Shown in pieces: positions 11,601 through 14,600 of a stretch of DNA of 21,535 bases (positions are counted from its first letter, which is position 1; each line of letters opens with the position of its first letter). A program made the translations under genes and the position numbers. The stretch comes from Saccoglossus kowalevskii (taxonomy: Eukaryota; Hemichordata; Enteropneusta; Harrimaniidae). The notes beneath the pieces are model-generated. The model was not told the DNA's origin. It searched no databases and saw only the letters and a list, made by a program, of their open reading frames with translations. The stretch lies in assembly GCF_000003605.2 (NCBI RefSeq), contig NW_003120918.1, forward strand, positions 215,608 to 237,142, in the 5' to 3' direction.

Positions 11601-14600
11601 AACACCAATGTCAATGTCAAGCACGTGTTCGTATTTCATGTAGACAAACAATGTATTTTACACTCGTTGCATACGTCATAATGAGTCCATGTCGAACGCG
11701 AAAGGCGAGTGCGGCTTTGAACTTTAACCGACTATTTTCCCATGATTCGAGAATTTGTGACGATAACAATTCTGATGCAAACCACGCTTATGAACTGAAT
11801 GGATATTCTAATACATTCTAATAGAACGTGTGTGAATCCCGCATATAAAGAATTGGTGCGAAATAAATCAGCTCTTCCTCAAAGAGAAGACTTTTCCGAT
11901 TGCATCTTAAATACCATCAATCAGAACCTTCGAGGGAGAACTACAGCAAGAACGAATCAAAAGCGTAAGTGTAAAATACCGTGAAACCTCGCGATAACTT
12001 GGGATATTGTGACCCAAGATGTACTTGACTGTAGACTGACGTTAAAAACCCACTGTGGGAACAATATTGATACAAGCCTGTCTCAACTCAAACATTCCAA
12101 CGGGCAGAATGTTTAGTTGCCACGGATGAAGAAAATAATCGAACCATCTAACAATTACACTGAATGAACAGGTGTCAAATTGCCGGGGAGGGGGGGGGGG
12201 GGTAGTACAAAACAAACGTGGGACCAACTAATACGAAATTAACAGAACAAAAAATACGCATAAAAAATACGCATACAAAATTCCCAAGTTTGACAGAAAT
12301 ATATGTAACTCAAAGGCTTTGAAAGCAAGTCCTAGAACCAGCGAATACAAACAGAATCTAAATTAGTGGAAATGTGTATTACTGGTGAAGTATTACGTAC
12401 ATTTCCGAACAATTCAATTACCTTTGGTTTCTTGGAATGGATCTGGAACGGCAGCATATGGTAAGGCAGACTGGTGCGAATCATCCTTGGAGACTCCATG
12501 TTGTTAATTTTCTCAAACATTTGAGGCGCGTTATTTTTATTGTTCTCCATATTTTCCAGTCTTATTAACCTGTCAGCAATTGGGATGTTGGTGACGGAGT
12601 CAAGGTCAGCTCCGTTTATGACGCAAGAAACAATCTCTTGGATCCACAAACCGCCTGTTTTAAAATATTATTATAATGTAACATATTCAGTACATTGACC
12701 TCGTAACGGTATGAAATATAGCCTCCAAAGTGTTTTTTTTTACAATTTGTAACTTGCTTCTCAAAATAATATTATTACGAGGATACCTCAATCCAAAAAG
12801 TTTAGAACAGAATCAGCAAACTTCTTTGTGTGGAGCCCGGTCGAACCCTTGTGGCGGCCATGTTTGTTTTTATTATTAGAGGACGCTTACAAACGTAATC
12901 ATTCCATATTTGGAATTCCTTATATGGTAGGATGAAAATACCCCCGTAAAATACTACAAAATTACGGCACGCTGTAACTTATGGCGTTACGGTGACAGAT
13001 GTATAATAGTGTATGATATTCTCACAAAATAATTATGGAAAATGAAGAGAGCAACAAATAATATTTAATTAGGCCCGAATCTCCTTAAATATAATAATTC
13101 TGTAATATTCGATAATATCGTGATAACTATTGTAAGGAACGAATTAAAGGTTATATCAATTAATTATATCACTATGCAGGTGATAAGAATAAAATCTAAA
13201 ATAAAAATTCTATCGAAAAAAAATATATTAATTAGCCAGCAGTATAAGGCAGGTCAATTTCGTAGTGCGCCAATGAGCCTCTGATGTTAAGTATATGTGT
13301 AAATTACACTTACCAGATCTTGGGTAATTTAAGACCCATACGTCATCATCGCGTATCTCCAACATTTTTATCATGTCAAGCGATGCCGTGGTAACAGTCA
13401 CTGGTAAACATACCCCCTCGTACTCATGACAACCAGTTTTTCGATCCTTAATTGGCGATTCTTTTCCGGCGATTTCGCGTTTTTTAGACTTAGACTTGAC
13501 ATCTTCCTTTTCTTTCTTTTTATCTTCTTCCTTGGCAGATGTGAGACGGCGTCTCTGTAACAAATGACATTGACATTGAATACCACGTGGTACTAAAAAC
13601 TCACAAGGCGTCGTGTTCGGCGTGGAACCAACAGCGACGTATACAATGTGTGTAGCAATATATCTTAAATACATTGTTTGTTTACACGAAGTTCCGTCGA
13701 ACGCGCCGATATTCGAAGACTGTGAAACGTTCATCAATAAACAACACTTTGACAATTTTTATTATGACATGGAGGTAGATTTCTTGATAATCCTAAAACA
13801 CATTTTTCTAATTTATACTTATCCCATAATATGTATTAACTCCTTGTTACCGCCTAGTGATCACGCCTTGCTGTGGCGTCGATAGAAAAAAAATGGGTAT
13901 GACGTTGTCATTCAGTTGAGAGAGTTGATAAAAATACGCACGACTACACAACCAATGAAAATCGTCTTGAGTAGGGTCTTGAGGAGCTAAATTTCACTCG
14001 TTGATATCATAGATGCGTTTCGTCGCTAGAGGGCGGTTCAATGTTTTCACCTGTTGATTTAATTAATATTAACTGCGTTCTAAATTAGTTGTTCGATTAT
14101 CAAACCGTGCATTGCACTGCTTGGACGAGAGACTACGATGACCAATTACCATTTTCAATATATATCATATAAACTTACTAAGTGTTTTAAAAATTGACAT
14201 GAACATTCCATTACGTAATCGCCGATATTCAAAACTATCGCTGACCTTCATAATACCTAGAATATATATTTATAAATTACTATACATAATTTGATTTTAA
14301 TAATAAACTTGTAAAAAAAATCTTAGATGATGTGGATTCGTAGTAGAAGGTGCAATTTAATATAATTGCAGACAGACAAGAGGATTCAGGAATTTACGGT
14401 TCAATCAATGGGTTTTGCTTCCGGTTAGGAATTAGTATATGAGTTATGGTTATGGTTCTCGGGACGTTATATAAAGGTTTCACGTTTAAACGTGTTACTA
14501 TATTGCACTCCCAGATTGCCGAGACAGCCCTTAATTTATGGTGTGTCAAAACCTTAATAGAATGAAACTCAGGCTGCATGAATCGTTATTCACGATTCAA

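Follow-up and report, generated by a model that had tools for sequence, protein, structure and literature searches.

Catalysis by sulfotransferases of the SULT families is described as requiring His99, Lys44 and Ser129, in SULT2A1 numbering (PMC8134075). In mouse SULT2A8, His99 is replaced by Leu, Lys44 is kept, and His48 of the 5'-phosphosulfate-binding (PSB) loop is the proposed base (PMC8134075). Vertebrate SULT4A1 keeps the His and has a short Loop 3, and its recombinant protein is described without 3'-phosphoadenosine 5'-phosphosulfate (PAPS) or 3'-phosphoadenosine 5'-phosphate (PAP) (PMC11275347). Another account states that no homologous sequences are reported in invertebrates, and argues from yeast data for a sulfate-dependent activity (PMC8803991). 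The head-to-tail dimer motif of SULTs has salt bridges at either end, and its Lys is the polyubiquitination site of SULT4A1 (PMC4079325); through this motif, SULT4A1 acts on other SULTs (PMC12529757). It is mainly SULT4A1 that raises the open question of a non-catalytic use of the sulfotransferase fold. Here, we describe a SULT gene of the acorn worm Saccoglossus kowalevskii, found in a stretch of 21,535 nucleotides (contig NW_003120918.1, positions 215,608 to 237,142; hereafter the window, to which all coordinates refer), in which a Ser stands in the place of the catalytic His. Read from its sequence, this intact sulfotransferase-fold gene probably encodes a conserved pseudoenzyme that has lost sulfate transfer and would act as a separate homodimeric protein binding a ligand or a partner.

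The coding exons of the gene run on the minus strand from 18445 down to 8575, and its product is identical throughout to the 331-residue database protein P0001 of S. kowalevskii (100% match), labeled "sulfotransferase 1A1-like". Positions 12484 to 12470 of this strand read ATG ATT CGC ACC AGT, that is M-I-R-T-S, followed by LP. The AGT codon (12472-12470) specifies Ser149, as indicated by the exon model, the homolog alignment and the alignment with human sequences. When aligned to human SULT1A2, Ser149 corresponds to His108 (also His108 of human SULT1A1), Arg147 to Lys106, Arg86 to Lys48, Gly89 to Thr51 and Leu90 to Thr52. Thus, Ser occupies the His position of the (K)[TS]HLP motif, and the PSB loop, canonically YPKSGTTW, reads Y-P-R-S-G-G-L-W. 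Leu90 stands where the replacement base of SULT2A8 would be found. The loop is shared between two exons. Exon A (13554-13314), defined by its splice signals and frame, encodes a Lys-rich N-terminal extension and the first half of the loop (YPRSG), with the Arg86 codon at 13318-13320. Exon B (12654-12422), supported by the Pfam PF00685 match, encodes G89-L90-W91 and the catalytic segment PRMIRTSLPYHMLP. The intron from 13314 to 12654 interrupts the codon of Gly88, the first Gly of the loop. The Arg and Ser that bind the 3'-phosphate (Arg130 and Ser138) are both retained as Arg171 and Ser179 in exon C (11466-11343; exon model and homolog alignment).

The original prediction had placed Ser at the catalytic His and Arg at the loop Lys, and had noted that a change from His to Ser (AGT) takes at least two base changes. 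The positions given proved exact, the translation and the SULT1A2 alignment agree with both substitutions, and the number of changes agrees with the genetic code. It had also described splice sites, frame and fold as intact, which holds for the 331-residue product: no internal stop interrupts the reading frame over the seven coding exons, and all six introns are GT-AG. The first coding exon has its coding part (MKRWTSL) at 18445-18425, where an ATG and a GTAAGT donor match the start of P0001, with a possible acceptor near 18500. Exon D (10126-10029; VAFGSW...LKYEDLKK in the exon model) follows exon C. The PF00685 domain extends over residues 76-320 of P0001 (225.6 bits), and structure comparison assigns the standard SULT fold to a predicted, alignment-based model that replaced a single-sequence prediction (predicted local distance difference test score of 33). 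In this comparison, SULT4A1 (1zd1) was outside the 50 matches listed, from which nothing is concluded. An alternative exon supplying THLP was also looked for in the window, and none was found: both THLP-like strings picked up by a script are either out of frame or outside a SULT context.

The rarity of these residues was evaluated among 192 homologs, namely all proteins listed in two protein searches, one of which listed 120 of its 321 matches. The set includes fragments, and also several proteins that are long or have two domains (P0088, P0089, P0090, P0102) and of which a single domain was aligned. At the catalytic position, His is found in 182 proteins, Gln in three, Ser in two (P0001 and P0002, the latter from the acorn worm Ptychodera flava), and Asn, Tyr, Met and Phe in one each, with one gap; for four distant rows (P0084-P0087) the alignment at this site is unsure. 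Gly at the Thr51 position occurs in four of the 192 proteins, two of them being the acorn-worm pair. The Arg at Lys48 must be viewed differently: it occurs in 27 of the 192 homologs, and in 25 of the 190 others. The loop Lys-to-Arg change put forward in the original prediction is therefore real, but it is weak evidence since it is common among other homologs, and such an Arg alone is no sign of inactivity. Conserved positions were counted over residues 49-331, in columns where a residue is present in 150 or more of the other 190 rows. At the 18 core positions conserved in at least 95% of these proteins, the pair departs only at the catalytic His. At the 29 positions conserved in at least 90%, the departures are the His in both proteins and the Arg of the PAPS-binding RKG motif in P. 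flava. Replacement of the His together with the RKG Arg is seen in P0002 alone among the 192.

Within the S. kowalevskii genome, 27 distinct stretches cover the site, corresponding to the loci fetched among 136 matches, a few of them of doubtful alignment; 25 have His, one has Ser (the present gene) and one has Gln. The latter, L069 (C2614:100000-104500), is an exon of another SULT paralog (PRTIGFQMLPEFLP). Gln at the His position (KTQLP or KTQVP), with canonical loop and RKG motif, is also found in P0004, P0006 (Apostichopus) and P0098 (Diadema setosum); these three proteins form a separate group without the His that is worth its own study. In addition, P0089 (Glandiceps), P0088 (Pocillopora) and P0090 (Patiria) have two SULT domains in one chain of 518-575 residues, either as real fusions or as merged gene models. 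A genome search located the six exons from 13554 down once each, the 21-base exon at the start of the coding sequence being too short for such a search. No close paralog was found in this search, own exons excluded: matches spanning most of the domain were 28-36% identical, and shorter single-exon matches 29-51%. Among the papers listed, a search of titles and beginnings of abstracts in the open-access literature retrieved no description of this gene or of any SULT with Ser for His, and a search of the open-access library combining sulfotransferase, pseudoenzyme and PAPS gave zero matches; the phrase "replaced by serine" in PMC11677658 concerns a Thr and not the catalytic His.

The P. flava protein (P0002; 334 residues; labeled 4A1-like by NCBI) is 60% identical to P0001 over its whole length, and 179 of 283 positions (63%) are identical over residues 49-331. 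Both have a charged N-terminal extension that most SULTs aligned with P0002 lack. P0002 reads YPRSGGIW, HTSLP and TKG: Ser and the Gly at Thr51 are as in P0001, whereas the Thr52 position is occupied by Ile, the Lys106 position by His, and the Arg of the RKG motif, which S. kowalevskii keeps, by Thr. The 3'-phosphate-binding Arg and Ser are identical in the two species, and Tyr234 is retained in both. In a tree of 53 hand-picked proteins out of the 192, together with six paralogs from the S. kowalevskii genome, P0001 and P0002 group with a support of 100/100 (stem 0.81; tips 0.25 and 0.37). Saccoglossus probably branched off at least as early as the split between P. flava and Schizocardium. 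The last common ancestor of the latter two is placed at more than 370 million years (PMC11175523), and Ser is thus shared by acorn-worm lineages probably separated for more than 370 million years. An intact frame kept at 60% identity over such a time would imply selection on the protein. Orthologs with His had been named in the original prediction as a refuting result; the only ortholog found has Ser, and the original proposal of a conserved pseudoenzyme or an altered chemistry, rather than a decaying pseudogene, is supported by this shared Ser, by the 63% identity of the core and by the intact frame and splice sites. That the gene is decaying or recently inactivated, or that the Ser is a sequencing error or an allele, is very improbable and largely refuted: loss of a catalytic residue can resemble early decay and transposon debris lies in the same window, but the Ser recurs in a second, independent species whose protein is 60% identical overall, and the frame and all splice sites are intact.

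Two further features distinguish the acorn-worm proteins. Firstly, the lid (Loop 3, from Phe270 to Gly291), encoded with Arg289-Lys290 of the RKG motif by exon E (9298-9145; exon model and lid comparison), spans 22 residues in each species, against 31 for the commonest length (46 of the 191 rows counted). Vertebrate SULT4A1-type rows have a lid of 17 residues in eight cases out of nine. One SULT4A1-type protein, P0124 of Crotalus horridus, has 69 residues in this region: roughly 50 additional, hydrophobic residues follow GRG and precede the dimer motif, as if an intron had been left unspliced in the gene model. Secondly, exon F (8699-8575), which ends with the stop codon, encodes a dimer motif with exchanged charges, E297-x3-T301-I302-x3-K306 (minus strand, 8682-8653; exon model and motif count), a feature absent from the original prediction. 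The usual motif is KxxxTVxxxE; S. kowalevskii has ExxxTIxxxK and P. flava ExxxTVxxxK. Among the homologs, the motif ends are K/E in 90 proteins and E/K in three, and E/K combined with a T-[VI] core is seen only in the acorn-worm pair. The double exchange is predicted to keep the salt bridges of a homodimer and to oppose a heterodimer with an ordinary K...E SULT. This charge-swapped zipper offers a directly testable prediction on how SULT dimers choose their partners.

On this basis, the following mechanism can be proposed. Without His108 and without a base of the SULT2A8 His48 type, the usual deprotonation of the acceptor hydroxyl would not take place. With Gly-Leu or Gly-Ile in place of Thr51-Thr52 and a short lid, the protein would have a loose grip on the 5'-phosphosulfate end of PAPS. 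Catalysis is likely lost, because both bases are absent, the threonines of the PSB loop are gone and the lid is short. As the 3'-phosphate Arg and Ser are kept in both species, some binding of PAP or PAPS is predicted to survive, and to be weaker in P. flava because the Arg of RKG is lost there; this loss argues against P. flava still needing to bind PAPS tightly. From the lost bases, the loosened PAPS site and the swapped dimer charges would follow a role as a separate homodimer that binds nucleotide, ligand or partner, as proposed for vertebrate SULT4A1, rather than as a conjugating enzyme.

Several points weigh against a loss of catalysis. The retention of Arg171, Ser179, Tyr234 and, in S. 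kowalevskii, of the complete RKG motif is consistent with a continued use of PAPS. SULT2A8 is an active SULT without the His (PMC8134075). In P. flava, the Lys106 position, two residues ahead of the Ser, is occupied by a His (His in 8 of the 192 homologs; Arg in S. kowalevskii) that could in principle serve as a base there. The non-catalytic model itself is debated, the yeast study arguing for sulfate-dependent activity of SULT4A1 (PMC8803991). It should also be noted that the short lid is not unique, with 22 residues or fewer in 17 of 191 rows, and that the number of departures is ordinary, since a single departure is seen in 61 of the 192 proteins, and two departures in 26, at the 29 positions mentioned above; the weight lies in the place of the departures and in their sharing by two species, rather than in their number. 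Finally, only two orthologs are known, P0002 being the only further one found, and no other was recognized among those Glandiceps talaboti proteins that the protein searches listed.

Some of these points can be read in favor of an active sulfotransferase with altered chemistry, which would use PAPS with acceptors needing no strong base, or with another residue as the base. The activity of SULT2A8 with Leu at the His site, the retained 3'-phosphate ligands and RKG, and the nearby His of P. flava are consistent with this idea, as are segments near the site that the two species have largely in common (14 of 15 residues at 82-96; 36 of 43 at 139-181). However, the conservation is not specific, because these segments are conserved in SULTs generally, and three of seven residues differ between the species at 116-122 (aligned to human residues 78-84). 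A replacement base of the SULT2A8 type is ruled out by the Leu or Ile at its position, S. kowalevskii has an Arg where P. flava has the nearby His, and the Arg of RKG is missing from the P. flava protein. Altered chemistry thus appears as a real, though clearly lesser, possibility next to the pseudoenzyme; the choice between the two is argued from anatomy.

A further explanation is that the gene is the hemichordate member of the lineage of SULT4A1, the vertebrate brain SULT without established activity. The NCBI name of the P. flava protein and the short lid of both proteins point in this direction, and a joint clade, whose log-likelihood is 6.2 lower, is not rejected (approximately unbiased test, p = 0.30). 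In the free tree, however, the acorn-worm pair lies outside SULT4A1. With the fish SULT4A1 (P0145) as query, P0002 comes 30th and P0001 34th of the 192 homologs listed, behind molluscan and other invertebrate proteins, and with two other SULT4A1-type queries the pair ranks 31 and 52, and 43 and 71; the relation is therefore not one of reciprocal best matches. Moreover, SULT4A1 keeps the His and the K...E motif (PMC11275347), and in the acorn-worm proteins the shortened loop comes with Ser and not with the His. Orthology to SULT4A1 is not supported and seems improbable, the acorn-worm protein being a candidate for a protein that may work like SULT4A1.

The window also contains repeats and transposon debris. 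A fragment of a Transposase_1 (PF01359) gene is found at 1201-1503 on the plus strand, and a tandem repeat with a 29-bp unit (6.4 copies) at 1-187. Two inverted repeats, 153 and 45 nt long with 88 and 91% complementarity, occur at 1643-1844 and 6170-6373; separated by about 4.3-4.4 kb, they enclose open-frame fragments, and the six such fragments scanned gave no Pfam match. The whole is likely a decayed mobile element.

How the acorn-worm pseudoenzyme candidate compares with known systems can now be summarized. Relative to canonical SULT1 and SULT2 enzymes (PF00685), the pair has Ser for His, Gly followed by Leu (Ile in P. flava) for Thr-Thr, Arg for Lys48 and, in S. kowalevskii, for Lys106, a lid nine residues below the commonest length, and exchanged dimer charges. 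Like mouse SULT2A8, it has the catalytic His replaced (Leu99 there), but it has Leu or Ile and Arg where SULT2A8 has His48 and Lys44. The His is also lost in the Gln-bearing SULTs, two of which (P0006 and P0098) are from echinoderms, the sister phylum; unlike the acorn-worm pair, these proteins keep the SGTTW loop, the Lys and RKG, and P0006 and P0098 stand on a different branch of the tree, which did not include P0004. With vertebrate SULT4A1 (PMC11275347, PMC8803991), the pair shares a short lid, an altered or weakened PAPS site and the lack of an established enzymatic role; SULT4A1 keeps both the His and K...E, and the acorn-worm proteins have neither. Tentatively, and with less confidence than the loss of catalysis itself, it may be imagined that acorn worms possess a pseudosulfotransferase class of their own, independent of SULT4A1 in origin and retained over more than 370 million years, in which the His was discarded and the zipper recoded to self-pairing, so as to give a homodimer that senses PAP, PAPS or a partner and stays separate from the ordinary SULTs with which it shares a cell. 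Should the Ser protein prove to bind a partner or PAP without sulfating anything, a non-catalytic use of the fold will have been demonstrated. The acorn-worm gene would thus add to SULT4A1 another, apparently separate example, one from which the catalytic His itself has gone, and would offer a natural test in animals accessible to the laboratory.
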